Positions 8,860 to 26,783 of a stretch of DNA of 35,296 bases are shown piece after piece. This stretch comes from Bacteroidales bacterium Bact_22 (GTDB lineage: Bacteria; Bacteroidota; Bacteroidia; Bacteroidales; F082), in assembly GCA_001603665.1 (NCBI GenBank), contig LUZN01000001.1, forward strand, positions 1 to 35,296, given 5' to 3'. How positions within the stretch are numbered: position 1 is the first letter of the stretch; each line of letters opens with the position of its first letter. A program made the translations under genes and the position numbers. Below the pieces are notes generated by a model that made no database searches, had not been told where the DNA came from, and saw only the letters and a list, made by a program, of their open reading frames with translations.

Positions 8860-8864
8860 CTCTA

Positions 8865-9857: not shown

Positions 9858-9876
9858 AATATCAGTTTATATTCGA

Positions 9877-10482: not shown

Positions 10483-10510
10483 AACTTTTTCTTTTTAAAA
10501 TGTTAAACAA

Positions 10511-10900
10511 TTACACTCTTCTACGTTTTGGCGGACGGCAACCATTGTGCGGTATTGGAGTAACGTCGATGATTTCTGTCACTTCTACGCCTGATGAGTG
10601 GATAGCGCGGATAGCTGATTCACGGCCTGCGCCTGGTCCCTTGACATAAACTTTAACTTTACGTAATCCCAAGTCATATGCAGTCTTTGAGCATTCTTCT
10701 GCTGCCATCTGAGCTGCGTAAGGAGTGTTCTTCTTTGAACCCTTGAAGCCCATTTTTCCGGCTGATGCCCAAGAAATGACTTGTCCTTCATTGTTTGCTA
10801 ATGAAATGATGATGTTATTGAAAGAAGCTTTGATAAAAGCCTTACCGGTAGCCTCAATCTTCACAACACGTTTCTTAACAGATTTTGAGTTTTTTGCCAT
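10511..10900 (-). CDS. rpsK: 30S ribosomal protein S11
   Basis: Small-subunit platform protein uS11 of 129 residues, with the near-universal segments [14 protein letters not shown] and the C-terminal [15 protein letters not shown]. It lies between rpsM and rpsD in standard order. The N-terminus is Lys/Val-rich as in relatives. Confidence 0.98.
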
Positions 10901-10948
10901 TTTTTAAACTTTACTTTTTAATGGTATTTAATATGATCCAACCACTAA

Positions 10949-11326
10949 TTACTTAGTAGCTTTCTTCTTGTTAGCGACGGTCTTCTTACGACCTTTACGT
11001 GTACGAGCGTTGTTCTTTGTGCTCTGACCACGCAGTGGTAATCCGAGACGGTGACGGATTCCTCTGTAGCAACCGATATCCATCAAACGCTTGATGTTGA
11101 TCTGAATCTCGCTGCGGAGTTCACCTTCTGTCTTGTAATTATCGGCGATGATGTTACGGATAGCGTTCTGTTCATCATCGGTCCAATCCTGGACTTTCTT
11201 GTCAGCTGGGACGTTAGCCTGTGCAAGGATAGCTTTAGCAGCTGAACGGCCGATACCGTAAATGTAGGTTAAAGATATTTGACCTTGTTTGTTGTTCGGG
11301 ATATCTACACCAGCAATTCTAGCCAT
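10949..11326 (-). CDS. rpsM: 30S ribosomal protein S13
   Basis: Small-subunit head protein uS13 of 125 residues, which contacts 5S-L5 bridges and P-site tRNA. It starts [13 protein letters not shown], has the helix-two-turn-helix region [14 protein letters not shown], and ends in the basic tail [20 protein letters not shown]. It follows rpmJ, as in other bacteria. Confidence 0.98.
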
Positions 11327-11344
11327 AATTTATCTATTTTTTAA

Positions 11345-11461
11345 TTAGCCCTGACGTTGTTTTTCCTTAGGGTTCTTTTTGTTAATTACATACAATTTAC
11401 CTTTACGACGCACAATCTTGCAATCGTCTGATCTCTTCTTGATAGATGCTCTTACTTTCAT
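11345..11461 (-). CDS. rpmJ: 50S ribosomal protein L36 (zinc-free form)
   Basis: Translating the minus strand from the ATG at 11461 gives a 38-residue bL36 that begins [19 protein letters not shown] and ends NPKEKQRQG, the normal family length and ends. Of the four zinc ligands in zinc-binding bL36 (three Cys and one His) only Cys14 remains. The others are Ser11, Asn27 and Lys33, so this is the C-minus, zinc-independent form. It lies between infA and rpsM. A candidate internal promoter lies just upstream. Confidence 0.95.
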
Positions 11462-11507
11462 TTTATATAATTTTTTATCTTTTTTCGAAGCATTTATTTT
11501 TAGCGCG

Positions 11508-11515
11508 CAAAAATA
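11508..11515 (-). promoter_or_regulatory. Candidate internal promoter ahead of rpmJ
   Basis: The 93-nt gap between infA and rpmJ is the widest in the spc-alpha part of the cluster. On the minus strand it reads TTTTG TATTTTTG CGCGC, with a perfect TAnnTTTG box. The block from one base before the box to AAAAAT matches the right-end promoter (35236-35256) at 20 of 21 positions. No clear TTTG is found at the 19-nt distance. It would allow rpmJ-rpsM-rpsK-rpsD-rpoA-rplQ to be transcribed separately. Confidence 0.55.
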
Positions 11516-11554
11516 CAAAATTTTGCGTTACCTTTTACATTTTGGTGCAAATTT

Positions 11555-11773
11555 TTATTTGTACCTGAAAGTTATACGACCTTTTGTCAAATCGTAAGGC
11601 GACATCTCGAGTTTTACCTTGTCACCAGGAAGAATTTTTATGTAATGCATACGCATTTTTCCGGAGATGTGAGCAATGATTTGCAGACCGTTCTCCAATT
11701 CGACACGGAACATTGCATTACCGAGTGATTCAGTTACTGTACCGTCTTGTTCTATCGACAACTGTTTTGCCAT
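11555..11773 (-). CDS. infA: Translation initiation factor IF-1
   Basis: Small OB-fold protein of 72 residues that occupies the ribosomal A site during initiation. The S1-like fold is recognisable in [14 protein letters not shown] and the typical end [18 protein letters not shown]. It lies 12 nt after map in the order secY-map-infA-rpmJ. Confidence 0.97.
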
Positions 11774-11785
11774 ATAATTTTCTTT

Positions 11786-12562
11786 TTATTGGTTATTTTC
11801 TACTGCTTCTGCCCATTCAAAACTTGATAAGATCTCGGCTTTGCCGTGGCGCACCGCGATATCGTGTTCGAAGTGAGCGGCCGGCTTCCTGTCGCGAGTA
11901 CAGATGGTCCAACCGTCACGTTCCTGCACGATTTCTTTCTTTCCGAGAGTGATCATCGGTTCGATGGCGAGCACCATGCCTTCGCTCAACTTGACGCCTG
12001 TGCCACGTTTTCCGTAGTTAGGCACCTGTGGGTCTTCGTGCATTTTGCGCCCTACTCCATGTCCGACGAGCTCGCGGACGACACCGTAACCAAATTGCTC
12101 GACGTGGTTCTGCACAGCGTAGCCGACATCGCCGATACGGTTGCCTGCCACTGCCGCCTCGATGCCTTTGTATAGCGATTCCTTCGTACGTTTGAGAAGG
12201 AGCTTCACCTCTTCCGACACCTCGCCGCAGCAGAACGTGTAGGCCGAGTCACCGACGTAGCCGTTGAGCACTGTGCCACAGTCGACCGAGACAATGTCGC
12301 CGTCGCGGAGCTCGTAGTCACCCGGGATACCGTGGACCACCTGCTCATTGACAGAGATGCATAGACTTCCGGGAAATCCGTCGTAGCCCTTGAAGGCTGG
12401 AGTCGCTCCGTGATCTCTGATAAACTCTTCAGCGAGTTTGTCGAGGTCGATGGTACGGACTCCCGGACGTATATGCTTTCCTACCTCGCCGAGGGTCTTA
12501 CCCACGAGCAAAGCAGCTTGTCTCAGCAATTCAATTTCGTTATCAGTTCTGAAATGAATCAT
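11786..12562 (-). CDS. map: Methionine aminopeptidase, type I
   Basis: Removes the N-terminal Met from nascent proteins. The 258-residue protein has the pita-bread metallopeptidase ligands in order: two Asp in SVDCGTVLNGYVGDSAYTF, His in VGHGVGRKMHEDP, Glu in VLAIEPMIT, and the last Glu in FEHDIAV. There is no N-terminal zinc-finger extension, so it is the short bacterial type Ia form. It lies between secY and infA. adk, often found here in other phyla, is absent. Confidence 0.97.
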   Translation of the reverse strand: MIHFRTDNEIELLRQAALLVGKTLGEVGKHIRPGVRTIDLDKLAEEFIRDHGATPAFKGYDGFPGSLCISVNEQVVHGIPGDYELRDGDIVSVDCGTVLNGYVGDSAYTFCCGEVSEEVKLLLKRTKESLYKGIEAAVAGNRIGDVGYAVQNHVEQFGYGVVRELVGHGVGRKMHEDPQVPNYGKRGTGVKLSEGMVLAIEPMITLGKKEIVQERDGWTICTRDRKPAAHFEHDIAVRHGKAEILSSFEWAEAVENNQ

Positions 12563-12574
12563 CTTTTATAGAAA

Positions 12575-13981
12575 TTACATCCTGCCTACGCGGCCTTTGA
12601 TACGGCCAGCCTTTGTGAGACCGTCGTAATGACGCATAAGAAGATGGCTTTCAATCTGTTGTAATGTGTCCAGCACCACACCGACGAGAATCAGCAATGA
12701 TGTTCCGCCATAGAACTGGCTGAACTGTTGGTTGACGCCCATGATAGAGACGAGAGCCGGCATGATAGCCACGACGCCGAGGAATAATGAGCCCGGAAGG
12801 GTGATTCTCGACATGATGGTATCGAAATAGTCTTTCGTCTGTTTGCCAGGCTTCACGCCAGGGATGAATCCTCCGTTCTTCTTGATATCTTCTGCCATCT
12901 GGGCCGGGTTGATGGTCACAGCTGTGTAGAAGTATGTGAAGATGACGATGAGGATGAAGAACACGAAGTTATACCAGAAGCCGTTCATGTTGGTCATAGC
13001 TCTCATGAAGCCGCCCATCTTATCAGGATCAGAATATCTGAAGAATGTGATAGGCACGAACATGATTGCCTGAGCGAAGATGATAGGCATAACGCCGGCG
13101 GCATTGACTTTCAACGGGATGTACTGACGCACTCCGCCGTATTGTTTGTTGCCGACAACGCGTTTCGCATACTGTACCGGAATCTTACGTGTACCCTGGA
13201 CGAGCAGGATAGTCATGATGATAACGAGTACGAGGAATACGATTTCCAGTAAGAAGAAGATCGGGCCGCCTGTACCTTGGGTGAAGCGTGATGCGATCTC
13301 TGCGAACAGTGCGAATGGGAGACGTGCGATGATACCGATCATGATGATGAGTGAGATACCATTGCCAATACCCTTATCGGTGATACGTTCGCCGAGCCAC
13401 ATGATGAACAATGTTCCTGCGATGAGGATTATCACTGAGGCAATCCAGAAGAACAATGTTGGGGCTGCACCTGTGAACGGGTAGATTGCTGTCGCTGGAA
13501 GCTGGGCGCGGAGGTTAGCGATGTAACCTGGGGCCTGCACTGCCACGATGAGCACCGTGAGGTAACGTGTAATCTGGTTGATCTTACGATGGCCACTCTC
13601 GCCTTCCTTCTGCAAACGCTGGAAGTAAGGGATAGCCATACCGAGCAACTGGATGATAATACTTGCGGTGATGTAAGGCATGATACCGAGTGCGAACACT
13701 GAGGCATTTGCGAAAGCACCGCCTGAGAACATATTCAACAAACCAAGGAGTCCGGAACTACTTTGGTTTTTCAACGCTGCCAGCTCGTTAGGGTCGACAC
13801 CTGGAAGAACCACGTATGAACCGAAACGGTAAATCAGGATAATTAACAGCGTATAGAGGATTCTCTTACGAAGTTCCTCGATTCTGAAGATATTCTGGAT
13901 GTTTTCTCTGAGTCGCTTGTTCGTCCAGAGGAGACCGGCGATGACGAGGCACACCAAAATAACTATTAATAACTCCTTCAT
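12575..13981 (-). CDS. secY: Protein translocase subunit SecY with extra N-terminal segment
   Basis: Channel subunit of the Sec translocon, with ten conserved membrane segments visible from about residue 42 (for example RFGSYVVLPGVD, the plug region, and GERITDKGIGNGISLII). The frame begins about 20 residues earlier than typical Bacteroidales SecY, and this added piece (residues 4-19, LLIVILVCLVIAGLLW) is strongly hydrophobic. No ATG, GTG or TTG codon lies between residue 10 and the usual N-terminus (IQNIFRIEELRKR), so the extension is not easily a mis-called start. It follows rplO by 19 nt, as in the spc operon. Confidence 0.96.
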   Translation of the reverse strand: MKELLIVILVCLVIAGLLWTNKRLRENIQNIFRIEELRKRILYTLLIILIYRFGSYVVLPGVDPNELAALKNQSSSGLLGLLNMFSGGAFANASVFALGIMPYITASIIIQLLGMAIPYFQRLQKEGESGHRKINQITRYLTVLIVAVQAPGYIANLRAQLPATAIYPFTGAAPTLFFWIASVIILIAGTLFIMWLGERITDKGIGNGISLIIMIGIIARLPFALFAEIASRFTQGTGGPIFFLLEIVFLVLVIIMTILLVQGTRKIPVQYAKRVVGNKQYGGVRQYIPLKVNAAGVMPIIFAQAIMFVPITFFRYSDPDKMGGFMRAMTNMNGFWYNFVFFILIVIFTYFYTAVTINPAQMAEDIKKNGGFIPGVKPGKQTKDYFDTIMSRITLPGSLFLGVVAIMPALVSIMGVNQQFSQFYGGTSLLILVGVVLDTLQQIESHLLMRHYDGLTKAGRIKGRVGRM

Positions 13982-14000
13982 ATCTCTTCAGTTTAGTTGA

Positions 14001-14444
14001 TTAAATTTTCTCAATAGTACCGCCGGCCTTTGTGATAGCCTCTTCAGCGCCTTTCGACCATGCGTTGGCTTTCACGTTGACGGCCTTTGTCAATTCACCG
14101 TTTCCGAGAATTTTTACTAATTCATTTCTTCCGACGAAACCGTTTTCTTTCAACAGTTCTGGGGTGATGTCTGTAATGCCGCTGTTTGCAAAGTCTTCGA
14201 GGACGTCAAGATTCACGGCGCGATATTCCACGCGGTTGATGTTCTTGAATCCGTACTTTGGAACGAGACGAGCGAGAGGCATCTGGCCGCCTTCGAAACC
14301 GATCTTGTGGGTGTTACCTGAGCGTGAGCCAGCTCCTTTGTGACCGCGTGTTGATGTTCCACCGTAGCCTGAGCCTTGTCCGCGACCGATTCTCTTGCGA
14401 TCCTTTACAGAACCTTCTGCCGGTTTAAGATTACTAAGATCCAT
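14001..14444 (-). CDS. rplO: 50S ribosomal protein L15
   Basis: Large-subunit protein uL15 of 147 residues. The Gly/Arg-rich N-terminal extension RIGRGQGSGYGGTSTRGHKG, which threads into 23S rRNA, and the globular domain (FEGGQMPLARLVPKYGF) are both clear. It is placed between rpmD and secY as in the spc operon. Confidence 0.97.
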   Translation of the reverse strand: MDLSNLKPAEGSVKDRKRIGRGQGSGYGGTSTRGHKGAGSRSGNTHKIGFEGGQMPLARLVPKYGFKNINRVEYRAVNLDVLEDFANSGITDITPELLKENGFVGRNELVKILGNGELTKAVNVKANAWSKGAEEAITKAGGTIEKI

Positions 14445-14474
14445 AACTATTTTTTAATTTTCTTAGTTTAACAA

Positions 14475-14666
14475 TTAGATTTCTTCAATTTTAAGAAGGT
14501 GTTTCACTTTCTCGACCATGCCAGCCACTGAAGGGTTTTCGATGTCCACTTCAACTGACTGATGCATCTTTCTGAGGTTCAAGCTTTTCAGAGTGTCCTT
14601 CTGATCCTGTGGTCTGCCGATGCCACTTCTAATCTGAGTTATTCTTACCTTTTTCATTGTGTTCAA
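14475..14666 (-). CDS. rpmD: 50S ribosomal protein L30
   Basis: Small uL30 protein with the typical KVRITQIRSGIGRPQDQK start and NPSVAGMVEKVKHLLKIEE end. The first ATG (14666) gives 63 residues. A second ATG three codons later (14657) gives 60 residues and fits the usual family start better, so the true start may be 14657. It lies 9 nt after rpsE. Confidence 0.95.
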   Translation of the reverse strand: MNTMKKVRITQIRSGIGRPQDQKDTLKSLNLRKMHQSVEVDIENPSVAGMVEKVKHLLKIEEI

Positions 14667-14675
14667 ATTTTTAGA

Positions 14676-15194
14676 TTATCCGTTAAACACCACATCCATA
14701 TCCACGCCTCTCATCTGGGCTACTGTGCGTGCGTCGCGCATCTGTGACAATGCGGCGAAGGTAGCTTTCACCACTGAGTGAGGGTTTGATGAACCTTTTG
14801 ACTTTGCGAGAACGTTCTTCACGCCGACGCTTTCAAGAACAGCACGCATTGCACCGCCTGCGATAACACCGGTACCAGGGGTAGCTGGCTGGATGTATAC
14901 GTATGCACCGCAATATTTTCCGTATTGTTCGTGTGGAAGAGTACCGTTGATGACCGGAACCTTGATGAGGTTCTTCTTTGCATCTTCTGTACCTTTTTGC
15001 ACAGCGGCTTGAACTTCTTTAGCTTTACCGAGGCCGTAACCTACTACGCCGTTTTCATTGCCGACGACGACGAGGGCTGCGAAGGTAAATGCGCGTCCAC
15101 CCTTGGTGACCTTAGTCACGCGGCCGACGTGGACCAGACGTTCTTTCAACTCGATTTCCGAAGTTTTTACTTTTTTTACGTTGACTTCTGCCAT
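14676..15194 (-). CDS. rpsE: 30S ribosomal protein S5
   Basis: Small-subunit protein uS5 of 172 residues, involved in mRNA entry and decoding fidelity. The N-terminal double-stranded-RNA-binding fold is seen in [20 protein letters not shown] and [17 protein letters not shown], and the C-terminal domain in [20 protein letters not shown]. It lies 4 nt after rplR. Confidence 0.98.
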
Positions 15195-15198
15195 AGTT

Positions 15199-15552
15199 TT
15201 AGAATTTTAATCCTCCATTACGAGCGCCGTCTGCTAAAGACTTAACTCTTCCGTGATACAAATAACCGTTACGATCGAATACGACTGTCTCGATACCGGC
15301 TGCCTTAGCTTTTTCAGCGATGAGGTTACCGACTTTTGCTGCCTTCTCGATCTTTGTAATCTTTTCCTGTTCGATGCCGTTCTCTGTTGAGCTGGCTGCG
15401 ACTAATGTCTTGCCGGCTTCATCGTCGATAAGCTGAACGTAAATCTGCTTGTTGCTTCTAAAGACAGACATTCTTGGGCGTGCTGCAGTGCCGAAAACGA
15501 CCTTACGAACGCGTCTCTTGATGTTTAATCTTCTTTCAATCTTCTTATTCAT
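15199..15552 (-). CDS. rplR: 50S ribosomal protein L18
   Basis: 5S rRNA-binding protein uL18, 117 residues. Recognised by [20 protein letters not shown] and the C-terminal [28 protein letters not shown] region. It lies between rplF and rpsE. Its terminal codons contain a GGAGGA stretch, but at 16 nt before the rpsE ATG this is too far to act as a normal ribosome-binding site. Confidence 0.97.
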
Positions 15553-15578
15553 CTTTCTTCAATTTTAAAAATTAAACA

Positions 15579-16139
15579 TTATTTACCTGCTGCCTTACCT
15601 GCCTTACGACGGAGCACTTCACCTTCAAACTTGATACCCTTGCCCTTGTAAGGTTCAGGTTTACGGTATGAACGGATCTTTGCTGCCACCTGGCCGAGCA
15701 ACTGCTTATCGTATGAACGCATTTTGAGGATAGGGTTCTTACCTCTTTCATTGATGGTCTCGCATGTGATTTCTGCCGGCATGACGAAAATCATGTTGTG
15801 TGAGAAACCGAGTGAGAGCTCGAGTTGTTTGCCGTTGGCCTTGGCTTCTGCCTTGTAACCTACGCCGACAAATTCCTGAACTGTCTCGAAACCTTCTGAT
15901 ACGCCTTTCACCATGTTGAAAATCAACGCACGGTAGAGACCGTGTTTGGCTGAAGCGTTAGGAATGTTAGCCGGTGCTATGTTGATATGACCGTCTTCAA
16001 TCTTGATATCGACGTCGCCGTGGAAATCCTGGGTAAGAGTACCGAGTTTTCCTTTGACTGTGATAACGTTATCTTTTACTGTAACCTCAGTACCTGCTGG
16101 GATTGCAATAGGTAATTTACCGATTCTTGATAATGCCAT
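15579..16139 (-). CDS. rplF: 50S ribosomal protein L6
   Basis: Large-subunit protein uL6 near the factor-binding site, 186 residues with the two tandem L6 repeats. The start MALSRIGKLPIAIPAG is typical, and the C-terminal RSYRKPEPYKGKGIKFEGEV is the family signature. It is unusual here in having a full Shine-Dalgarno sequence 8 nt before its ATG. Confidence 0.98.
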   Translation of the reverse strand: MALSRIGKLPIAIPAGTEVTVKDNVITVKGKLGTLTQDFHGDVDIKIEDGHINIAPANIPNASAKHGLYRALIFNMVKGVSEGFETVQEFVGVGYKAEAKANGKQLELSLGFSHNMIFVMPAEITCETINERGKNPILKMRSYDKQLLGQVAAKIRSYRKPEPYKGKGIKFEGEVLRRKAGKAAGK

Positions 16140-16147
16140 AACTGTTT

Positions 16148-16153
16148 CCTCCT
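16148..16153 (-). promoter_or_regulatory. Consensus Shine-Dalgarno of rplF
   Basis: AGGAGG on the minus strand (within TAGGAGGAAACAGTTATG) ends 8 nt before the rplF start. Other start regions in this cluster show at most partial purine runs such as AAAGGA or AAGAGA, so this site stands out. Confidence 0.8.
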
Positions 16154-16156
16154 ATA

Positions 16157-16555
16157 TTATGATACATAGCACAACACTTCGCCTCCGATGTGGAGATTGC
16201 GGGCTTCTTTATCTGTCATAATGCCTCTTGAGGTCGAGATGATGGCGATGCCAAGACCGTTCATGACTCTCGGGAGGTTTTCTGAGTCAGCATACTGACG
16301 GAGACCTGGGCGTGAAACGCGCTCGATTGTCATGATAGCTGGCTGTTTGGTAACAGGGTGGTATTTAAGAGCGATCTTAATAGTACCTTGTGGGCCTTCT
16401 TCTTCGAACTTATAGTTAAGGATATAGCCTTTTTCGAAGAGGATCTTGGTGATAGCCTTCTTCACATTTGAAGCAGGGACTTCCACGATTCTATGTTTAG
16501 CGTTAACGGCATTGCGTACGCGTGTCAAAAAATCTGCTATAGGGTCTGTAATCAT
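16157..16555 (-). CDS. rpsH: 30S ribosomal protein S8
   Basis: Primary 16S rRNA-binding protein uS8, 132 residues. It has the start MITDPIADFLTRVRNA and the C-terminal STSRGIMTDKEARNLHIGGE signature. In E. coli S8 regulates the spc operon by binding ahead of rplE. I could not identify such a site here. It lies 21 nt after rpsN. Confidence 0.98.
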   Translation of the reverse strand: MITDPIADFLTRVRNAVNAKHRIVEVPASNVKKAITKILFEKGYILNYKFEEEGPQGTIKIALKYHPVTKQPAIMTIERVSRPGLRQYADSENLPRVMNGLGIAIISTSRGIMTDKEARNLHIGGEVLCYVS

Positions 16556-16576
16556 AGTTTTAATCCTTTTAATTAA

Positions 16577-16846
16577 TTACCAACTTGCTTTTTTAACACC
16601 TGGGATCAAGCCTTTGAGGGCCATTTCACGGAAGTTGATACGTGAGATGCCGAACTGACGCATATAACCTTTTGGACGTCCTGTAAGCTGACAACGATTG
16701 TGTACGCGAATAGGTGAAGCGTTTCTTGGAAGCTTCTGGAGACCTACGTAGTCGCCGGCTGCCTTGAGGGCTGCGCGTTTCTCAGCGTATTTCTCGACCA
16801 TCGCCATTCTCTTGCGCTCGCGCGCTTTCATTGATTCTTTTGCCAT
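16577..16846 (-). CDS. rpsN: 30S ribosomal protein S14 (long, zinc-free form)
   Basis: Small-subunit head protein uS14. At 89 residues with a single Cys (in [20 protein letters not shown]) it is the long C-minus form that does not bind zinc, in contrast with the short 61-residue form with two CxxC pairs. It lies 7 nt after rplE in spc order. Confidence 0.97.
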
Positions 16847-16853
16847 ATCTTAC

Positions 16854-17411
16854 TTATTTTTTCTGGTTTTTAAATGGAAGACCAAACTGTTTCAACAAGG
16901 CCATTGCTTCCTTGTCGGTGTTCGCTGATGTGACGAAAGTGATATCCATACCGTTGATCTTGTTGACTTTATCCATGTCGATCTCCGGGAAGATGATCTG
17001 CTCGCTCACGCCGAAGCTGTAGTTGCCGCGGCCGTCGAAGCCTTTGTCATTAATACCTCTGAAGTCACGAACACGTGGAAGGGCGACAGCGACTAAGCGT
17101 TCGAGAAATTCGTACATCTTGTCACCGCGCAACGTCACGCGCACGCCGATCGGGTTACCACGACGAAGCTTGAAGTTAGAAACGTCGTGTCTAGAAATAG
17201 TCGGAACGGCTTTTTGTCCGGTGATAGCTGTCATTTCCTCTACACCATAGTCAATCAGTTTCTTATCGGCAAGAGCTGCACCGATACCCTGATTGAGCGA
17301 AATTTTCAAAAGCCGTGGAACCTGCATCACGGATTTGTAGTTGAATTCCTTCATCAACGCAGGCACGATTTCGCTCTTATACTGTTCTCTGAGTTTGGGT
17401 TGATAGTTCAT
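16854..17411 (-). CDS. rplE: 50S ribosomal protein L5
   Basis: 5S rRNA-binding protein uL5, 185 residues. Recognised by [45 protein letters not shown] and the C-terminal [16 protein letters not shown]. Its start codon shares one base with the rplX stop (TAATG), indicating translational coupling. Confidence 0.98.
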
Positions 17412-17728
17412 TATTTAATAACCTCCCCTGATTTTTTTGAATAACGGATTGATTTTCCTTGTTCATCTTTTTTACGACCGATGCGGCCGGCTTTACCGTC
17501 CTTGTCGCAAACCATGACGTTTGAGGCATGGATGGAAGCTTCCTTCTTTACGATACCACCTTTAGGGTTCTCGGTATTCGGTCTTGTGTGCTTCGACACG
17601 AGGTTGACGCCGTCGACGATGACGCGGTTCTTCTCGGTATCGACGCTGAGGACTGTACCTTTCTTGCCCTTCTGGGTTCCGGCGATAACGACTACGTTGT
17701 CGCCTTTCTTTACGAACATTTTACTCAT
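17411..17728 (-). CDS. rplX: 50S ribosomal protein L24
   Basis: Assembly-initiating protein uL24, 105 residues. A KOW motif lies in the N-terminal part ([20 protein letters not shown]), followed by [14 protein letters not shown] and [18 protein letters not shown]. It is coupled to rplE by a TAATG overlap and lies 19 nt after rplN. Confidence 0.97.
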
Positions 17729-17747
17729 AACTTTATTCCTTTCTTAA

Positions 17748-18116
17748 TTAGAGTACCTCAGGTGCAAGAGATACGATTTTCATATACTGTTTCTCACGCA
17801 ACTCTCTGGCTACTGGTCCAAAGATACGAGTTCCTAACATTTCGCCTTGTCCATTGAGGAGGACGCATGCGTTGTCGTCGAAGCGGATGTATGATCCGTC
17901 GGCGCGGCGTGTTTCCTTCTTTGTGCGGACTACGACTGCCTTTACTACTGAACCCTTCTTCACGTTACCGCTTGGAAGAGCGTCTTTTACTGTGACCACG
18001 ATGACGTCGCCGATACGGGCATAACGTTTCTTGGTTCCGCCTAACACTCTGATGCAGAGCACTTCCTTTGCACCGCTATTGTCGGCTACTGCAAGTCTTG
18101 ATTCTTGTTGTAACAT
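17748..18116 (-). CDS. rplN: 50S ribosomal protein L14
   Basis: Intersubunit-bridge protein uL14, 122 residues. The start [20 protein letters not shown] and the segment [19 protein letters not shown] are characteristic, as is the end IVSLAPEVL. Its ATG overlaps the rpsQ stop by one base (TAATG). Confidence 0.98.
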
Positions 18117-18370
18117 TACTTGGCCCTTTCTATTATTTCAACGAGTCTCCAACGTTTGTTCTTGCTCAACGGACGTGTCTCCATGATGCGGACGGTGTCA
18201 CCGATGTTGCACTCATTCTTCTCGTCGTGTGCGAAGAATCTTGTTGATTTCTTAACGAATTTACCGTAAATCGGGTGTTTTGTACGACGTTCAATCACAA
18301 CGACGATCGTCTTGTCCATCTTATTGCTGGCTACTACACCGATTCTCTCTTTTCTAAGATTTCTTTCCAT
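18116..18370 (-). CDS. rpsQ: 30S ribosomal protein S17
   Basis: OB-fold 16S-binding protein uS17, 84 residues, with [39 protein letters not shown] and [16 protein letters not shown]. It ends overlapping the rplN start by one base. A partial purine run (GAAAGGAA) precedes its ATG. Confidence 0.98.
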
Positions 18371-18391
18371 GTTTATTCCTTTCGTCGTTTA

Positions 18392-18598
18392 TTATTTAAC
18401 GTTCTTTTCTGCATTCTGACGCTTTGTGAGCTCTGTGAGCATACGTGCGATCTGTTTGCGGGTTGCGCTGATTGTGTTCGGATTATCCAATGGAGAAACT
18501 GCGTGTTGCATTTTCATCTTGATGTACTGTGCGCGAGTGGCCTCAATACGTTCCATCAGATCAGCAGTGCTTAATTCATTGATTGCTTCTTTCTTCAT
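18392..18598 (-). CDS. rpmC: 50S ribosomal protein L29
   Basis: Small helical protein uL29 at the polypeptide exit, 68 residues. The central ISATRKQIARMLTELTKRQ helix is typical. It lies between rplP and rpsQ in S10-operon order. Confidence 0.96.
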   Translation of the reverse strand: MKKEAINELSTADLMERIEATRAQYIKMKMQHAVSPLDNPNTISATRKQIARMLTELTKRQNAEKNVK

Positions 18599-18614
18599 GA
18601 TGCGTTACTGTTTT

Positions 18615-19034
18615 TTATTCGACATAATCTCTTCTAACCACAAACTTAGTTGCTACAGGAAGCTTTTGAGCGGCTAAGCGGAGAGCTTCTCTGGCGACTT
18701 CCAGCGGTACTCCCGCAGCTTCGAAAAGCATGTGACCTGGAGTTACGCGAGCTACGAAGTACTCGACGTCTCCCTTACCTTTACCCATACGAACCTCAAG
18801 AGGCTTCTTGGTGATAGGTTTGTCAGGGAATATTCTGATCCAAATCTGTCCTTCACGTTTCATGTGACGTGTGACAGCTTGACGGGCAGCCTCAATCTGG
18901 CGTGCTGTGATCAGGTGTTCCTCAAGTGTTTTAATACCAAAAGTACCGAAGGCGAGTTCATGGCCGCGGTGTGCGTTGCCTTTCATCTTGCCCTTCTGAG
19001 GTCTTCTGTATCTAGTTCTTTTTGGTTGTAACAT
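18615..19034 (-). CDS. rplP: 50S ribosomal protein L16
   Basis: Protein uL16 near the A site, 139 residues, with [39 protein letters not shown] and the [15 protein letters not shown] loop that contains the Arg hydroxylated in some bacteria. It lies 21 nt after rpsC. Confidence 0.98.
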
Positions 19035-19055
19035 CTCTTATCTTTTTTTAATCTA

Positions 19056-19790
19056 TTACTTAGTAGTACGTTTATTACGACGTGGGGCGCCACCGTTTGG
19101 TTTGCCTGCATTGCCACCCTTCTTAGGTGCAGCAGCGGCTGTGGTGGTAGGCACCAGTTCCGGACGACCGTAGACCTCACCTTTGCAGATCCACACCTTA
19201 ATACCGATGCGGCCGTATGATGTGTGAGCCTCTACGAGAGAGTAGTCGATGTCAGCACGCAGTGTGTGCAGCGGCACGCGACCTTCCTTGTAAGTTTCCT
19301 GACGTGCGATTTCAGCACCGCCGATACGGCCAGAAGCGATGACCTTGATACCTTCGGCACCAATTCTCATTGTGTCTGACACGGCCTTCTTGATGGCGCG
19401 ACGGAATGAAACACGTCCTTCAATTTGCTTTGCGATTGAACTTGCGACGATGAATGCGTCGAGTTCAGGTCTCTTGATCTCGCTGATGTTGATCTGAATC
19501 TCCTTACCGATGAGCTTCTTCATCTCTTCCTTCAACTTGTCGACCTCTGTACCACCTTTACCGATGATGACACCTGGACGAGCTGTGAAGATAGTGACTG
19601 TAACGAGCTTAATCGAACGTTCGATACCGATTTTCGAGATACTAGCCTTACCGAGACGAGCGGTGAGATACTTACGGATCTTATCGTCTTCGCCGATATT
19701 CTTGGCTGTTTCTTTACCACAGTACCAGTTTGAGTCCCAACCTTTGATGACTCCGAGTCTTAAACCTATTGGATGAGTTTTCTGTCCCAT
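19056..19790 (-). CDS. rpsC: 30S ribosomal protein S3
   Basis: mRNA-entry protein uS3, 244 residues. A type II KH domain with the loop VIIGKGG lies at about residues 75-81, and the C-terminal domain contains [20 protein letters not shown]. The last 30 or so residues form a Gly/Asn/Lys-rich tail, somewhat longer than in E. coli. It lies between rplV and rplP. Confidence 0.98.
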
Positions 19791-19801
19791 TGTAATCTTA
19801 A

Positions 19802-20236
19802 TTAATTCTTTTCAACATTAGCTTCTGCTGCATTCATTTCTGCAATTCTGCTATCGACGATGATAGTGACGTGGTTAGAGCGTTTGCGGATGCGGTGTGC
19901 ACGACCCTGTGGGGCTGGCTGAATACGCTTCAGTGTGCGACCTTCATCAACAAAGATCTCTTTTACGTACAGGTTAGCGTCTTCAATGCGCTTACCCTCG
20001 TTCTTAGCTTCCCAGTTGGCGATTGCAGAGCGGAGTAACTTGTACACCGGCTTTGCAGCTGCTTTAGGTGAGTATAATAAGGCATGCAGTGCAAGTTCCA
20101 CTTTCATTCCTCTGATCATATCAGCGACCAAACGCATTTTGCGTGGTGAAGTAGGGATATCATTGTATTTTGCAATGGCGACCTGCTTCTTAGCTGCTTT
20201 TCTAGCTTCTGCTGTATTATGTTTTCTTGCTCCCAT
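19802..20236 (-). CDS. rplV: 50S ribosomal protein L22
   Basis: Exit-tunnel protein uL22. At 144 residues it is longer than E. coli L22 (110), with about 15 extra basic residues before the core ([20 protein letters not shown]) and a short acidic tail after the signature [16 protein letters not shown]. The beta-hairpin [18 protein letters not shown] reaches the tunnel. It lies 8 nt after rpsS. Confidence 0.98.
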
Positions 20237-20244
20237 AGTACTTA

Positions 20245-20517
20245 TTATTTATCTTTTCTGTTACCGGCATGGCCTCTGAATGTACGTGTTGGTGCGAACT
20301 CGCCGAGTTTGTGTCCAACCATGTTTTCAGTCACGTAAACCGGGATGAATTTATTACCGTTGTGAACAGCGATGGTTTGTCCAACGAAATCAGGTGAAAT
20401 CATTGAAGCTCTTGACCAAGTCTTGATCACGGTCTTCTTTCCTGTTGCTACATTATCCAGAACTCTCTGTTCGAGTTTATAGTGGATATATGGTCCTTTT
20501 TTAAGTGAACGACTCAT
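20245..20517 (-). CDS. rpsS: 30S ribosomal protein S19
   Basis: Small-subunit head protein uS19, 90 residues, with [40 protein letters not shown] and [16 protein letters not shown]. Standard position between rplB and rplV. Confidence 0.98.
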
Positions 20518-20542
20518 AATTTCTTTCTTTTTACTTGGTTAA

Positions 20543-21367
20543 TTACTTCTTACGTCTTTCAATGATATACTTGTTGGATGCGTTCTTTGGATGACGTGTC
20601 TTGTAGCCCTTTGCCGGCAAGCCCTTACGGCTTCTCGGATGGCCACCAGATGCACGGCCTTCACCACCACCCATCGGGTGATCAACCGGGTTCATGACGA
20701 CGCCACGGACGCGTGGACGACGGCCTAACCAGCGGCTGCGACCTGCCTTACCTGATTTCTCAAGGTTGTGGTCAGCATTCGACACTGTTCCAATTGTAGC
20801 TCTGCAAGCCTGGAGGATGAGACGGGTCTCACCTGAAGGCATCTTCAAGATGGCATATTTACCATCACGTGACATCAGCTGTGCGTATGCGCCTGCGCTG
20901 CGTGCCATCTTGGCACCCTGACCTGGACGCAACTCGATGTTGTGGATGATTGTACCGAACGGAACATCGCTCAAGAACAATGTGTTACCGATGTTCGGAG
21001 TGGCATCCTTACCTGACATCACCTCTTGTCCGACCTTCAAGCCCTGAGGTGCGATGATGTAACGCTTCTCGCCATCAGCGTAAACCACTAATGCGATGCG
21101 TGCTGTGCGGTTCGGATCGTATTCGATAGTCTTAACGATTCCCTTAATACCGTCTTTATCGCGCTTGAAGTCGATAATTCTGTATTTCTGCTTGTGACCA
21201 CCGCCGATGTTGCGGACAGTCTCCTTTCCAGTATTGTTACGGCCGCCAGTGCTCTTCTTAGAAGCAAGCAACGATCTCTCCGGCTTGTTGGTCGTAATCT
21301 CGTCGAACGCGCTGATAACTTTGAAGCGCTGACCTGGAGTAGTTGGTTTATATTTCTTTAAAGCCAT
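20543..21367 (-). CDS. rplB: 50S ribosomal protein L2
   Basis: Core large-subunit protein uL2 required for subunit association and peptidyl transfer, 274 residues. The universal C-terminal segment [19 protein letters not shown] contains the conserved His. Other clear segments are [19 protein letters not shown] and [20 protein letters not shown]. It begins 2 nt after rplW. Confidence 0.99.
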
Positions 21368-21369
21368 CT

Positions 21370-21660
21370 TTAAATGTTGCTAAAAAAGTCAATTGTTTCA
21401 CCTTTAGCCAAGGTCACGATAGCCTTCTTGAAAGCATCTCTTCTGCCCTCAATCATACCGGCCTTTGTGTAACGTGACTTGAGCTTTCCATCATATCTCA
21501 TAGTGTTGACTGATGCCACCTGAACGCCATAGAGGTCCTGGACAGCCTTCTTAATCTGCAACTTGTTAGCGCGGACGTCAACAATGAATGCATACCGGTT
21601 CAGCTTCTCGCTGATAGCGGTCATCTTTTCCGTAATAACAGGTTTCTTAATGATAATCAT
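21370..21660 (-). CDS. rplW: 50S ribosomal protein L23
   Basis: Exit-site protein uL23, docking point for trigger factor and SRP, 96 residues. It starts [14 protein letters not shown] and has [20 protein letters not shown], both typical. It lies between rplD and rplB, 2 nt before the latter. Confidence 0.97.
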
Positions 21661-21680
21661 CTCTTTAATCTTTTTAAGGT

Positions 21681-22307
21681 TTATCCAAGAATTTCGTCAA
21701 TAACTGCAAGCGAGCTTTCAGTGATGAAGAGCTTCTTGGCATTCAGAATATCATAAGTGTTGAGGTTACGGGCAAGTTCAACTTCTGTGCGCTGAATGTT
21801 TCTTGCTGACAACACGATGTTCATGTTTGTCTCTGGGAGAACGAACAGGTTCTTGCCACCATTCACTTTAAGGTTGTTCAAGACTTCGATCATTCTCTTG
21901 GTCTTGATTGTGTCAAATGTGAAATCTTCGAGGATCACAATCTCGTTGTCCTGCATCTTGTAAGTAAGAGCTGAACGACGTGCGAGCTGTTTCACCTTCT
22001 TGTTCAATTTGAAACCATAGTCACGTGGTTGTGGACCGAAAACACGGCCGCCACCTCTCAACACTGGTGAGTTGATGTCACCACGACGTGCACCGCCTGT
22101 TCCCTTCTGACGGAACAACTTGCGTGTACTGCCTGATATCTCGCTACGTGTCTTGGCTTTGTGTGTGCCCTGACGCTGATTGGCCAAATATTGCTTTGTA
22201 TCCAGATAGATGCAATGATCATTTGGCTCGATGCCGTAGATATTCTCGTTCAACTGAACTTTACGTCCTGTTGATTCACCGGTAATCTTTAAAACTTCTA
22301 ACTCCAT
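21681..22307 (-). CDS. rplD: 50S ribosomal protein L4
   Basis: Protein uL4, 208 residues, lining the exit tunnel through its long loop ([33 protein letters not shown]). In E. coli L4 represses the S10 operon. I saw no leader to match. The ATG at 22307 lies inside rplC, giving a 10-nt overlap. This start aligns with the normal family N-terminus, so the overlap looks genuine. Confidence 0.98.
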
Positions 22308-22927
22308 CTCTCAATTTTTAAATAGCCGTTCTTAGCTCCCGGTACTGAACCTTTTACTACTAACAAATTCTTTTCCGGAACGATTTTCACAATTTGGAGG
22401 TTGATAGCCTTCACTTTATGGTTACCCATCTGGCCACCCATACGCAATCCTCTGAAAACTCTTGAAGGATAAGCGCAAGCTCCAATTGAACCTGGTTTTC
22501 TCAAACGGTTGTGCTGACCGTGAGTTGCTTGTCCAACGCCATTGAAATGATGACGTTTCACTACGCCCTGGAAGCCCTTACCTTTGCTGATGCCGCTGAC
22601 ATCGACAAATTCGCCTTCCATGAACACTTCGACGGTAATAGTTTCACCCAGGTGCTTTCTGTGACCTGCTTCGAAACGTGTGAACTCTCTAACCAACTTC
22701 TTAGGCGTTGTGCCGGCTTTCTCGAAATGCTTCTGCATAGCCTTTGAGGTGTTCTTCACCTTCTTCTCGTCAAACGCCAATTGGATAGCGTCGTAACCGT
22801 CTTTCTCCTTTGATCTTACTTGGGTTACTACACATGGACCTGCTTCGATGACTGTAACAGGAACGTTCTTGCCGCTCTCGTCATAGATGCTGGTCATCCC
22901 AATCTTTTTTCCTAGTATTCCTGACAT
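22298..22927 (-). CDS. rplC: 50S ribosomal protein L3
   Basis: Early-assembly protein uL3, 209 residues. It has the N-terminal [20 protein letters not shown] and the central loop [20 protein letters not shown] that reaches the peptidyl-transferase centre. It ends within rplD by 10 nt and follows rpsJ by 35 nt. Confidence 0.98.
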
Positions 22928-22962
22928 TGCTACTAATTTAAGCTGTTAATTACTAGATAGTT

Positions 22963-23271
22963 TTACAATAATTTAATTTCTACATCCACGCCATTTGGCA
23001 TTTCCAATTTCATCAAAGCATCAATCTGCTGAGAAGTTGCGTTGTAGATATCCAACAATCTCTTGTAGTATGACAACTCGAACTGCTCACGTGATTTCTT
23101 GTGAACGAATGTGGAGCGCAAAACAGTGTAGATTTTCTTGTCGGTCGGAAGCGGAATAGGACCGCTGACGACTGCACCAGTCATTTTGATGGTTTTCACG
23201 ATCTTCTCGGCTGACTTGTCAACCAAGTTGTGGTCGTGCGACTTTAATTTGATTCTAATTCTTTGGCTCAT
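22963..23271 (-). CDS. rpsJ: 30S ribosomal protein S10 (NusE)
   Basis: Protein uS10, 102 residues, a head component that also links ribosome and NusG during transcription-translation coupling. It has [38 protein letters not shown] and the [14 protein letters not shown] region. It follows fusA directly (68-nt gap, no promoter box recognised), with no tuf gene in between. Confidence 0.98.
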
Positions 23272-23339
23272 AAGACCTTTTTTTAATTTATTTATTTTTT
23301 TAACTATTTATTTCGTTAACGTTTCGACTCCTATATTAA

Positions 23340-25460
23340 TTAAAACACGAAGTAAATTCCTTTCGCTTTCTTGACTACGATGTCGGCGAGCGCCGGAGGA
23401 ACCTCAGCGTAATGGCTGAACTCCATGTTGAATGTGCCTCTGCCTTGTGTCAAGGTGCGAAGTGTTGTGATGTATCCGAACATCTCTGCCAGCGGGGCGT
23501 CGGCTTTAACCACCTGGAGACCATGCTCCACGTCCACGTTGTGCAAAACAGCTCTACGTCTGTTGAGGTCGCCCGTAACATCGCCGAGATAGTCGGCCGG
23601 AACCTGAACCTCAACCTTCATGATTGGCTCCATCACCACTGAGCCCGCCTGTGCGCCGGCTTCCTTGAAGCCGATGCGTGCCGCCGACTCAAACGAGAGG
23701 TCGTCGCTGTCGACCGGATGAGAGCTGCCGTCGATGAGGCGCACCTTGACGGAATCCATAGGGAATCCTGCCAAAACGCCGTTCGACATGGCACCTCTGA
23801 AACCCTTCTCGATAGGAGCGAAGAACTCTTTCGGGATGTTGTTGCCTTTCACGTCGTTGACGAACTGCAAACCTGACTGTCCGTTATCGGCCGGACCGAT
23901 CTCAAACTCAATATCGGCGAACTTGCCTTTGCCGCCGGTCTGTTTCTTATAGACCTCGCGGAAACGGACTGTCTGTGTGAACGATTCTTTGTATGCCACC
24001 TGCGGCTGACCCTCGTTGATCTCGATTCCGAATTCGCGTTTCAATCTGTCGACGATGATGTCGAGATGAAGCTCGCCCATGCCCGAGATGATGGTCTGAC
24101 CTGAGTTCTCGTCGGTATGGACTTTGAATGTCGGGTCTTCTTCCTGAAGCTTCTGGAGTGCTATGGTGAGCTTCTCCATGTCGGCCTGCGTCTTAGGTTC
24201 GACGGCGATTTGCACGACTGGCTCAGGGAATTTGATGTTCTCGAGGATTATCGGTTTGTTTTCAACTGCGAGGGTGTCACCCGTTCTGATCTCACGGAAT
24301 CCCACAGCGGCTGCGATGTCACCTGCCTCGATGCTCTCGAGAGGTGTCTGCTTGTTGGCGTTCATCTGCACGATCTTAAGGATGCGTTCACGTTTGCCTG
24401 TAGAGACGTTGAGAACGACCTGACCGGCGTTCATTGTGCCTGAATACACACGGAAGAACGCGAGTTTGCCTACGTATGGGTCTGTAGCGATCTTGAATGC
24501 GAGTGCGCAGAAAGGTTCTTTCGGATCTGCTTTACGTGTCTCTTCTTTTTCGGTCTTCGGATTGATACCTGTCACGTGGTCGACGTCAAGCGGGCTTGGA
24601 AGGTAGCGGACTACACCATCGAGGAGAGGTTGTACTCCTTTGTTTTTGAATGAAGCTCCACACATCACAGGGCACATACGCAATTCTAATGTTGCCTTTC
24701 TTATTTCTGCGTAAATCTCTTCCTCTGTGATGGTTTCAGGATCGACCATGAATTTCTCAAGGAGCTCTTCATTGTTTTCAGCAACGCCTTCTAAGAGTTT
24801 AAGGCGATATTCTGCTGCTAAATCAGCCAGTTCTGCCGGGATCTCGACTTCGTCGAATTGGGTGCCGAGTTCGTCTTCGTCCCACAACAGAGCTTTGTTC
24901 TTGATGAGGTCAACCACGCCAATGAAGCCATCCTCCTCGCCTATCGGGATTTGGATTGCTATAGGATTGGCATTGAGACGTTCTTTGATTTGTCTGAGGA
25001 CTTTATAGAAGTCAGCGCCACTGCGGTCCATCTTGTTGACAAAACAGATGCGTGGCACGTTATATCTGTCGGCTTGACGCCACACTGTCTCCGACTGAGG
25101 CTCAACACCGCCAACTGCGCAGAAGATTGCGATAGCACCATCGAGGACTCTGAGCGAGCGTTCCACTTCAACGGTGAAGTCGACGTGACCAGGAGTGTCG
25201 ATGATGTTGATTTTGAATTGGTTGTCGCTGAGGTGCCAGTAAACTGTTGTGGCTGCTGAGGTTATGGTGATGCCGCGTTCTTGCTCCTGAACCATCCAGT
25301 CCATGGTAGCCGCGCCGTCGTGAACCTCGCCGATACGATGATTACGGCCTGTATAATACAGAATACGCTCCGTTGTCGTCGTCTTACCGGCATCGATGTG
25401 AGCCATGATGCCGATATTACGCGTCAGAGCGAGGTTTGTATTATGGAGGTCGTTAGTCAT
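23340..25460 (-). CDS. fusA: Elongation factor G
   Basis: Translocation GTPase, 706 residues, with all five domains. The G1 motif AHIDAGKTT is at residues 20-28, followed by the switch region [13 protein letters not shown]3 DTPGH and G4 NKMD. An intact G domain and location in the str operon mark it as the housekeeping EF-G and not the divergent EF-G2 paralogue known in Bacteroides. Domain IV carries [18 protein letters not shown]. It lies 29 nt after rpsG. Confidence 0.99.
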
Positions 25461-25489
25461 TGTTTCTTATACCTTATTAATATAATGGA

Positions 25490-25957
25490 TTAGAATCTGA
25501 AATGTGAGAACGCCTTGTTAGCGTCTGCCATTCTGTGGATTTCTTCCTTCTTCTTGAAAGCTGCGCCTTCCTCTTTGTAAGCCTGCATGATTTCACCTGC
25601 GAGTTTTTCGCCCATTGAGCGCTCATGGCGTTTGCGAGCGTAACCGATGAGGTTCTTCATACCCATGCTCTGTTTACGTGAAGGACGGATCTCTGATGGG
25701 ATCTGGAATGTTGCACCACCGATACGACGGCTTCTGACCTCGACCTGTGGGGTAACGTTTGCCAATGCTTTCTTCCATACTTCGACAGGGTCTTCCTGAA
25801 GTTTTTCCTGAACGATGTCCATTGCCTGGTAGAAAATCTCGTAAGCGAGGTTCTTCTTACCCTTGAGCATGATGTTGTTCACGAACTTTGTGACTGTGAC
25901 ATCACCGTACTTTGGATCCGGAAGGATGATTCTTTTCTTTGGTTTAGCTTTTCTCAT
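25490..25957 (-). CDS. rpsG: 30S ribosomal protein S7
   Basis: Head-assembly protein uS7, 155 residues, with [40 protein letters not shown] and the C-terminal [20 protein letters not shown]. In E. coli S7 autoregulates the str operon. Whether it binds the structured leader upstream of rpsL here is an open question. It lies 21 nt after rpsL. Confidence 0.98.
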
Positions 25958-25978
25958 TTCTTAAGCATTTACTGATTT

Positions 25979-26368
25979 TTACTTCTTTGCTGCTGCTTTT
26001 TTAGGACGCTTTGCACCGTATTTTGATCTGCGTTGACGGCGGCCGTCGACACCGGCGGTATCCAATGCACCGCGGATGATGTGATAACGTACACCCGGAA
26101 GATCCTTCACACGGCCTCCTCTAATCATGACGATTGAGTGCTCCTGTAAGTTGTGGCCTTCGCCTGGAATGTAGGCGTTGACTTCCTTCTGATTTGTCAG
26201 ACGTACTCTTGCAACTTTACGCATTGCCGAATTAGGCTTCTTAGGTGTCGTGGTATAAACACGAACACAGACGCCGCGGCGCTGTGGGCAAGAATCCAAG
26301 GCAGGAGATTTACTCTTGTCTTCCAATTTCTGACGTCCTTTGCGGACTAACTGTTGAATCGTTGGCAT
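25979..26368 (-). CDS. rpsL: 30S ribosomal protein S12
   Basis: Decoding-centre protein uS12, 129 residues, the first gene of the cluster. The segments [20 protein letters not shown] and [20 protein letters not shown] carry the lysines whose mutation gives streptomycin resistance in other bacteria. Both are wild type here (Lys43 in the first segment). A short Lys/Ala tail ends the protein. It is preceded by an unusually long leader of about 260 nt. Confidence 0.99.
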
Positions 26369-26630
26369 TCTTTAATTGCGTTTAAATTATTATTTTTTAT
26401 TTTGTTGATAGATAAATTTCTCTCTTATCACCAGTAAAAAACGGTAATTCTTGAAGCATTTTACGCATGTAGTAAGGATTTGACAAGTCACATTACGGAC
26501 TTTTGTTTATCAAAACACACCGAAGTCTAAGGGGTTGAGTTTGAGCGACTTACGGTGCAAGAACCTATAACGTTTTCTTTATCAGGTCCTTACTATTGGT
26601 AAATGAGGCAACATTTACTACCTTTTTTCG
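26369..26630 (-). promoter_or_regulatory. Long 5' leader of the rpsL (str) operon
   Basis: If transcription starts about 6 nt after the -7 box at 26636-26643, the mRNA carries about 260 untranslated bases before rpsL. The promoter-proximal 160 nt hold several complementary arms (see the structured element). The last 100 nt (26369-26468) are AT-rich and contain a T-run after ACCG (plus-strand 26434-26443) but no convincing terminator stem. There is no long reading frame; a 10-codon uORF lies at 26582-26614. Confidence 0.7.
26470..26618 (-). ncRNA. Candidate structured cis-regulatory RNA in the rpsL leader
   Basis: By eye, the minus-strand RNA can form: P0, a 7-bp hairpin (26612-26618 with 26599-26605); P1, a perfect 9-bp closing stem (26587-26595 with 26470-26478; UAGUAAGGA and UCCUUACUA) enclosing 108 nt; P2, 7 bp with one bulged G (26579-26586 with 26564-26570), stacked directly on P1; P3, 10 bp with one bulged U (26547-26557 with 26518-26527) and a 19-nt loop; and weaker P4 (26498-26502 with 26485-26489). 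Together these form a closed multi-branch junction like a riboswitch or ribosomal-protein leader. No ligand is inferred. I do not recognise it as a named family and cannot exclude that it is one. Confidence 0.6.
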
Positions 26631-26635
26631 GGCTG

Positions 26636-26643
26636 CAAAATTA
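26636..26643 (-). promoter_or_regulatory. Main promoter of the ribosomal cluster (-7 element)
   Basis: TAATTTTG on the minus strand fits TAnnTTTG. The 23 bases 26635-26657 match 35223-35245 on the plus strand at 21 positions, including the ATTGAAAAATGT spacer, suggesting a shared strong-promoter type. The -33 half at 19-nt spacing is poor (GTCG). Confidence 0.65.
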
Positions 26644-26744
26644 CTACATTTTTCAATACGCCCGACATTTTTTTCAAAAAATTTTTCAAATTATTTTTCA
26701 ACAATGTTAACCATTGATAATCAAACTGAAACAATAAATGAAAA

Positions 26745-26779
26745 AAACTTCAAACTTCAAACTCAAAACTTCAAACTAT
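26745..26779. repeat. Heptanucleotide tandem repeat AAACTTC x5
   Basis: Five phased 7-nt units, AAACTTC, AAACTTC, AAACTCA, AAACTTC and AAACTAT, end four bases before the uvrD/pcrA -7 box and cover its -33 region. The rest of 26644-26744 is AT-rich with no recognised element. Confidence 0.85.
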
Positions 26780-26783
26780 TTTG

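Follow-up and report, generated by a model that had tools for sequence, protein, structure and literature searches.

Genomic setting of the leader

The window, the whole 35,296-nt stretch of contig LUZN01000001.1 from Bacteroidales bacterium Bact_22, carries on its reverse strand a contiguous str-S10-spc-alpha cluster that runs from rpsL to rplQ and is presumed to be one regulated unit (Table 1). This unit of about 18 kb holds about 33 genes, 29 of them identified and four small ones expected in gaps; gene names were assigned from the proteins and the gene order, without annotation. On the opposite strand, the divergent gene adjoining rpsL (26810-29146) encodes a UvrD/PcrA-type helicase (Pfam PF00580 and PF13361) and is followed by a DUF4290 gene and then by an EPSP-synthase-family gene. 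By eye, a helicase-like reading frame, reversed, also lies upstream of rpsL in one relative (L102).

The rpsL leader contains a structured element whose outer stem, P0, ends 101 nt before the rpsL start codon of the window. No open reading frame of at least 20 amino acids extends across the element, and five touch an edge of 26466-26634. On comparative evidence, the element is a conserved pseudoknotted leader of the ribosomal supercluster, with a secondary structure supported by covariation.

Table 1 Features of the rpsL leader and its cluster (window coordinates; paired strands are separated by a slash)
Feature	Position	Strand	Basis
Bacteroidetes-type −7 promoter box TAATTTTG	26636..26643	-	sequence
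5′ hairpin, 7 bp, 6-nt loop (26612-26618 / 26599-26605)	26599..26618	-	fold
P0 outer stem, 5′ strand	26587..26595	-	pairing statistics over 64 elements
P0 outer stem, 3′ strand	26470..26478	-	pairing statistics over 64 elements
P1, 5′ strand AGGACCU, most conserved hairpin	26584..26590	-	alignment A3
P1, 3′ strand AGGUUCU	26560..26566	-	alignment A3
PK2, 5′ strand, GAUAA part of P1 loop	26577..26584	-	P1-loop pairing statistics
PK2, 3′ strand CUUGUCA	26481..26487	-	P1-loop pairing statistics
PK1, 5′ strand AAAACG, in P1 loop	26571..26576	-	comparison with relatives
PK1, 3′ strand UGUUUU	26512..26517	-	comparison with relatives
P2 hairpin, 10 bp, 19-nt loop (26547-26557 / 26518-26527, one bulged U)	26518..26557	-	fold; genus alignment A4
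P3, small optional hairpin	26501..26515	-	fold
rpsL (S12), first gene of cluster	25979..26368	-	ORF list; product retrieves relatives by tblastn
str-S10-spc-alpha cluster, rpsL to rplQ, presumed regulated unit	8359..26368	-	ORF list

Upstream of the 5′ hairpin lies a match to TAnnTTTG, which we take to be the Bacteroidetes −7 motif, and transcription would start at about 26628-26632. A sequence scan places such a box 46-88 nt 5′ of P1 in 62 of 63 leaders (L150, with the element before rpsJ, was left out), whereas after mononucleotide shuffling 5.9 of 63 carry a box anywhere within 150 nt. Many genomes that lack the element also have a box at a similar position before rpsL, as judged by eye. 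In 36 of the 63 leaders a second −7 box stands between the element and rpsL, 50-96 nt 5′ of the rpsL start (7.7 expected); the other 27, including the window's genus, gave no second box. The rpsL-to-rplQ order is contiguous in seven carrier genomes, as in the window, and the gaps of more than 90 nt within it hold one −7 box, in a species of the window's genus, which would plausibly place the leader at the head of the whole str-S10-spc-alpha unit. The preliminary description of this DNA had put the element at the head of the fused cluster, and its conservation before rpsL behind a promoter box agrees with that placement.

Fold of the leader in the window

The four stems listed in the preliminary description all exist, but they do not form its nested closed junction only; the conserved form is a pseudoknot around P1. 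The 9-bp stem, here P0, pairs without a mismatch across arms 108 nt apart, and both the 10-bp hairpin, here P2, and the separate 5′ hairpin are present. The 7-bp stem has its seven pairs, with one bulge, but lies 2 nt off the 9-bp stem on each side instead of being stacked directly on it. It corresponds to PK2, one of the two parts of the pseudoknot that the P1 loop forms. Missing from that inventory were PK1 and the best conserved of the helices, P1 itself.

Taken alone, the perfect 9-bp stem is mildly unusual, being reached by 5 of 200 dinucleotide shuffles of a 169-nt segment. The fold of 26466-26625 has an energy of −42.8 kcal/mol, against −26.75 kcal/mol (sd 3.63) for shuffled sequences (z = −4.42; 0 of 200 as low). 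Nested folds of 64 related elements give a mean z of −2.11, with 54 of them below −1 (40 shuffles each), and the 70 nt 3′ of P1 in these elements a mean z of −1.12 (36 below −1, 9 above 0).

P0 and an extended P1 have the sequence AAGGA in common in the window. The best nested fold contains P0, and forcing P1 yields −38.0 kcal/mol, a cost of about 5 kcal/mol; as modelled, P0 and P1 would either share a junction or alternate. The 3′ strand of PK1 overlaps P3, so these two compete in the window's species. In sister species P3 is replaced by a different hairpin (helix 6 of alignment A4, 77.0% paired). A 5′ hairpin of different sequence is visible by eye in some relatives.

Conservation and covariation

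We compared rpsL loci from 39 genomes near the window's (37 with rpsL) and from 80 named contigs among the matches listed. The alignments comprise 22 of 27 leaders (A2), 62 of 76 (A3) and, for the genus, 20 of 24 (A4), the last leaving out L006, L007, L009 and L016, in which P2 and P3 are too different. Two relatives (L034 and L062) were dropped from the pattern comparison, the pattern having matched outside the element. The leaders read, from the window's genus and from other lineages, share a constant core, (A/G)ACCUGA(U/C)AA ... AUAGGU; the columns ACCUGA, AA and AGGU are invariant in 22 leaders, and CCUGA and AGG in 62.

P1 is paired in 98.6% of cells in A3, and sliding its partners lowers pairing to 67% or less. 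With statistics that ignore phylogeny, as throughout our covariation and pairing tests, both sides have changed in four of its seven pairs (1 of 500 shuffles as high), and 14 cells have changed on both sides compared with 4.9 in shuffles (0 of 500 as high); pair types are unexceptional in number (42 of 500 as high). An example is the A-U pair next to CCU, which is G-C in two species of the genus g32.

Within the window's genus (A4, 36 pairs), 83.6% of cells pair, compared with 43-44% when slid by one column, and 37 cells have changed on both sides against 13.2 after shuffling. Nine pairs in this alignment have changed on both sides, which is unexceptional (61 of 500 shuffles reach as many), and pair types are fewer than the shuffled mean. 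P2 pairs in 82.8% of cells, with two of nine pairs changed on both sides, and PK1 in 72%, with no pair changed on both sides.

Support for the longer-range helices comes from exchanging strands between species, using 64 of the 76 elements (near-duplicates removed; L150, with its element before rpsJ, retained). For the P1 loop, pairing with the downstream region of its own element gives −10.2 kcal/mol, and with that of other species −8.6 kcal/mol (Wilcoxon p = 3.5e-6 over the 64 elements, phylogeny ignored). Against its own shuffled downstream region (−8.1 kcal/mol) the difference has p = 4e-8, with 21 of 64 elements below the 5th percentile. This pseudoknot effect is one of averages: the own downstream region ranks 18.8 of 64 on mean, and several of the best loop duplexes, including the window's, which lacks PK1, bypass the expected strands. 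The pairing falls into two parts, GAYAA with UURUC and RRGAC with GUCYY, and reaches 12 bp in L117 and 11 bp in L168. The PK1 part often reads RRGAC / GUCYY in relatives and UAAAC / GUUUA in sister species. The P0 strand gives −10.7 kcal/mol for its own downstream region and −8.1 kcal/mol when swapped between species (p = 4e-10), also for the 51 elements outside the genus (p = 1e-7). Its own shuffled downstream region likewise gives −8.1 kcal/mol (p = 2e-9; 29 of 64 below the 5th percentile), whereas a control segment further upstream has no pairing preference (p = 0.91; 3 of 64). Many other Bacteroidales keep in their rpsL leaders the element first described in one genome, and the differences among these genomes support P1, P0 and the pseudoknot.

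Distribution in the Bacteroidales

A covariance model of P1 built from 22 leaders (R1) matched 69 of 247 genomes of the order at E ≤ 0.05. Its best 30 matches are all immediately upstream of rpsL and share its strand; the next 40, weaker ones comprise 22 rpsL leaders, one rpsJ leader and 17 others, 4 of them inspected. A second P1 model from 62 sequences (R2), run on 393 whole genomes of the order, matched 104 genomes at E ≤ 0.02. At E ≤ 1.2e-4 it returned 89 matches, 86 of them directly before rpsL on the same strand; the other three lie before rpsJ (G054) and inside genes (G107 and G108). Genomes outside the model supplied 34 of the 86, mostly from families represented in it, with four (G095, G193, G606 and G612) in two families that are absent from it. 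The window's own match (26554-26598, E 3.3e-7) concerns a sequence included in the model. From the 24 rows above E 1.2e-4, 11 were fetched, 3 were in stretches obtained earlier (L148, L173 and L175) and 10 were left out; one of the 11 (G619) lies beside ribosomal genes, and two of the stretches end at a contig end.

Counted from the R2 table, the carriers amount to 87 genomes in 30 anonymised families. The element is dispensable, since R2 has no confident match in 306 of the order's 393 genomes. In a class-wide scan of 346 genomes, part of them from the order, and under the stricter filters of large scans, R2 found only the window's genome and seven weak matches (E 6e-4 to 0.009). None of the seven adjoins a ribosomal gene of the cluster; one (L185) has a distant map-like gene. 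Five of the 80 named contigs listed are carriers (L031, L035, L065, L080 and L102), all of them metagenome assemblies. The core is absent from the rpsL leaders of Bacteroides neonati (L045), Tannerella forsythia (L039) and Parabacteroides faecalis (L055). A plasmid search gave 32 records, in which the matches are all short and cover less than 80%.

Rearranged clusters and candidate regulators

Three genomes of the genus g32, with one R2 match each, bear on the identity of a regulator. G163 has a fused cluster with the element before rpsL. In G054, a draft assembly in which rpsL and rpsG were not found, the element precedes rpsJ and retains P1 and an outer stem (−11.1 kcal/mol), with no clear pseudoknot partner. 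G619, which is 68% complete, has its cluster in three pieces: rpsL-rpsG-fusA and rpsJ-rplC-rplD lack the element, and rplW-rplB-rpsS-rplV-rpsC has a weak, degenerate copy. The G619 match (E 0.0024) is as weak as chance matches in the class-wide scan, and a promoter takes the place of its 3′ half. The cluster is broken in two of the three g32 species (L182, L259, L265 and L266) and contiguous in twelve other genomes of the order viewed whole.

These rearrangements point weakly to the S10-spc-alpha part of the cluster as the source of a ligand, away from S12 and S7. The pattern comes from two drafts, the second at a chance-level score, and may simply mark the fragment that kept the old promoter. 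S7 and S12, the proteins that the preliminary description named for binding and reporter tests, are not favoured as regulators on this thin evidence of an element before rpsJ and a weak copy before rplW.

Resemblance to rRNA is common in ribosomal-protein leaders but not required. Mimicry was sought with the P1 model R2 and a relaxed pattern in 16S and 23S rRNA of members of the order, with nothing convincing: for R2, run with filters off on five loci with rRNA, the best match (14.5 bits) is antisense, and the best sense match in rRNA (10.9 bits) has its arms in different helices of a local fold. A resemblance to the S8 site in 16S h21 was considered and dropped.

Comparison with known ribosomal-protein leaders

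Rfam 15 contains no gathering-score match for the window or for 15 relatives, and permissive scans of the window and 12 relatives returned microRNA matches below threshold only. The preliminary description had recognised no named RNA family, and none emerged here; the element would belong to a class without a match in Rfam 15, most likely a new class of ribosomal-protein leader. A literature search, with most subscription papers beyond its reach, found no published rpsL leader in Bacteroid- taxa. Table 1 of PMC7247131, in the part of that paper available, gives 20 new ribosomal-protein leaders, and those of Bacteroidia are L13 and S4, neither before rpsL; the available part of PMC6429828 does not mention rpsL.

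Attenuators in rpsL leaders are given for Listeria, Xanthomonas, Pseudomonas, Rickettsia and streptococci in the accessible portion of PMC2965389, where the string 'bacteroid' is absent. Like our element, they are leaders before str-operon genes with presumed ribosomal-protein control. They differ in having been predicted from intrinsic terminators, with no globally conserved feature in that text. Our intrinsic terminator scan of 26200-26800 found one terminator-like site, inside rpsL, and none in the window's leader. A terminator after P0 was considered and rejected, as the U-rich stretches of some relatives are not constant.

Two E. coli systems are comparable. The S7 site there is in the rpsL-rpsG spacer and works at the level of translation, according to the portion of PMC10931766 at hand, which also names L4 as the protein that binds the S10 leader. 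Autogenous control of the str operon by S7 is similar in kind; an E. coli-type S7 site would sit in the rpsL-rpsG spacer of a message carrying rpsG, whereas our element precedes rpsL and, in G054, rpsJ. The S10 leader resembles ours as a long structured 5′ untranslated region controlling a large ribosomal operon, and differs in that no Rfam match is found here and in that in G619 the weak copy precedes rplW while rpsJ-rplC-rplD, which encodes L4, lies elsewhere without it. A sub-threshold Alpha_RBS (RF00140) match occurs just before rpsM in one carrier genome (L183, 2739-2820, reverse strand; 23.8 bits, cut-off 38, E 0.15); positions 9800-12700 of the window have no Alpha_RBS match.

Closer in taxonomy is the S4-Bacteroidia leader (RF03139), which by Table 1 in the available part of PMC7247131 is likewise a structured RNA leader of Bacteroidia, with targets in the same cluster (rpsD, rpoA and rplQ). 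It differs as a 34-position motif before rpsD. Identifying S4 through likeness of the two motifs was abandoned, since by eye they share no sequence. At gathering score, RF03139 matches neither the window nor any of the 87 element-bearing genomes. It is present in 48 of the 393 genomes of the order, with an overlap of 0 against 10.6 expected (hypergeometric 2.5e-6), and in 15 families, none shared with the 30 of the element; 258 genomes have neither at the thresholds used. This exclusivity may be a product of clade structure. As a lead, it would suggest either that S4 is the ligand of both leaders or that two alternative designs exist in the order. In the map-rpsM or secY-rpsM gap, a −7 box precedes rpsM in 3 of 5 non-carrier clusters and 1 of 7 carrier clusters (L285, L288, L289 and L281); non-carriers could start a separate alpha-operon message there, in a sample too small to judge.

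Proposed function and alternatives

We judge it somewhat probable that the element is a new class of ribosomal-protein leader controlling the str-S10-spc-alpha message, and that it helps to adjust ribosome production. From a start just upstream of 26618, the message would fold at its 5′ end into P0, P1, P2 and a pseudoknot joining the P1 loop to strands 55-90 nt downstream. One of the cluster's own ribosomal proteins, probably from the S10-spc-alpha part, would bind this fold when a shortage of rRNA leaves it free, and would lower output from the transcript, either through premature termination or by keeping the message from being used. Because P0 and extended P1 share AAGGA, one of these two helices may be complete when the RNA is bound and the other when it is free. 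In known leaders the ligand is a protein made from the operon itself, most often not the product of its first gene, as stated in the available part of PMC7247131.

Location argues for this reading: 86 of 89 confident matches precede rpsL and one precedes rpsJ, behind a promoter box in 62 of 63 leaders, and the single elements of g32 stand before rpsL, rpsJ and rplW, always ribosomal genes. Further points in its favour are the pairing evidence for P1, P0 and the pseudoknot, the unbroken downstream cluster of the seven carriers and, unless clade structure explains it, the lack of any element in the 48 genomes with the S4 leader. Messages of Bacteroidetes have little Shine-Dalgarno pairing. With no terminator in the window's leader either, no step leading from binding to repression is evident, which counts against a ribosomal-protein leader. 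So do the second −7 box of the 36 leaders, which would bypass control, the lack of a convincing 16S or 23S resemblance, the 306 genomes with no confident match and the weakness of the G619 match.

Some of these observations would also suit a 5′ element that stabilises the message, pauses the polymerase or directs processing, setting message lifetime or elongation over the 18-kb transcript with no feedback. The fixed place behind the promoter box, the 5′ hairpin, the lack of a terminator in the window's leader and the 306 genomes with no confident match fit such a role, which we regard as possible though not likely; a constant core within variable helices suggests a specific binding partner, not mere stability.

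A partner need not be a protein. A riboswitch-like sensor of a candidate small molecule, such as a growth-rate nucleotide signal, could govern the whole cluster with no ribosomal-protein ligand, and some RNAs that regulate ribosomal-protein genes may bind no ribosomal protein, according to the available part of PMC7247131. The pseudoknotted fold with its invariant core (22 and 62 leaders), the two folds 5 kcal/mol apart and the lack of rRNA mimicry accord with a sensor of this kind. Riboswitch classes usually spread to several pathways. Here, 87 of the 89 confident matches precede ribosomal genes, two lie inside genes and none precedes a metabolic gene, and we consider a riboswitch rather unlikely.

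An independent small RNA gene upstream of rpsL, acting in trans, would explain the element's own promoter box and the second box of the 36 leaders, but in the 27 leaders with no second box the RNA would belong to the rpsL message, and in G054 and G619 the element precedes other ribosomal genes, making a separate gene improbable. Chance folding of an A+T-rich leader, which the single 9-bp stem reached in 5 of 200 shuffles might have allowed, has next to no credibility beside the covariation of P1, the controlled pairing tests of P0 and the pseudoknot, and the position of the held-out R2 matches.

A bolder extension, which we offer as speculation with little expectation that all of it holds, is that a pseudoknotted switch exchanging P0 for P1 sets the roughly 33 genes of a single unit of about 18 kb in a large part of the Bacteroidales. 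It would sense something other than the ligand of a classical rRNA mimic, such as a growth-rate nucleotide or an assembly intermediate, and related lineages without it would use the S4 leader before rpsD, giving two alternative designs for the same genes.

As a ribosomal-protein leader, the element would be a class without an Rfam entry that heads the largest ribosomal-protein cluster. Its base pairs, as given by the alignments, can be tested directly, and the exclusivity with the S4 leader opens a way to test whether one control design has replaced the other.
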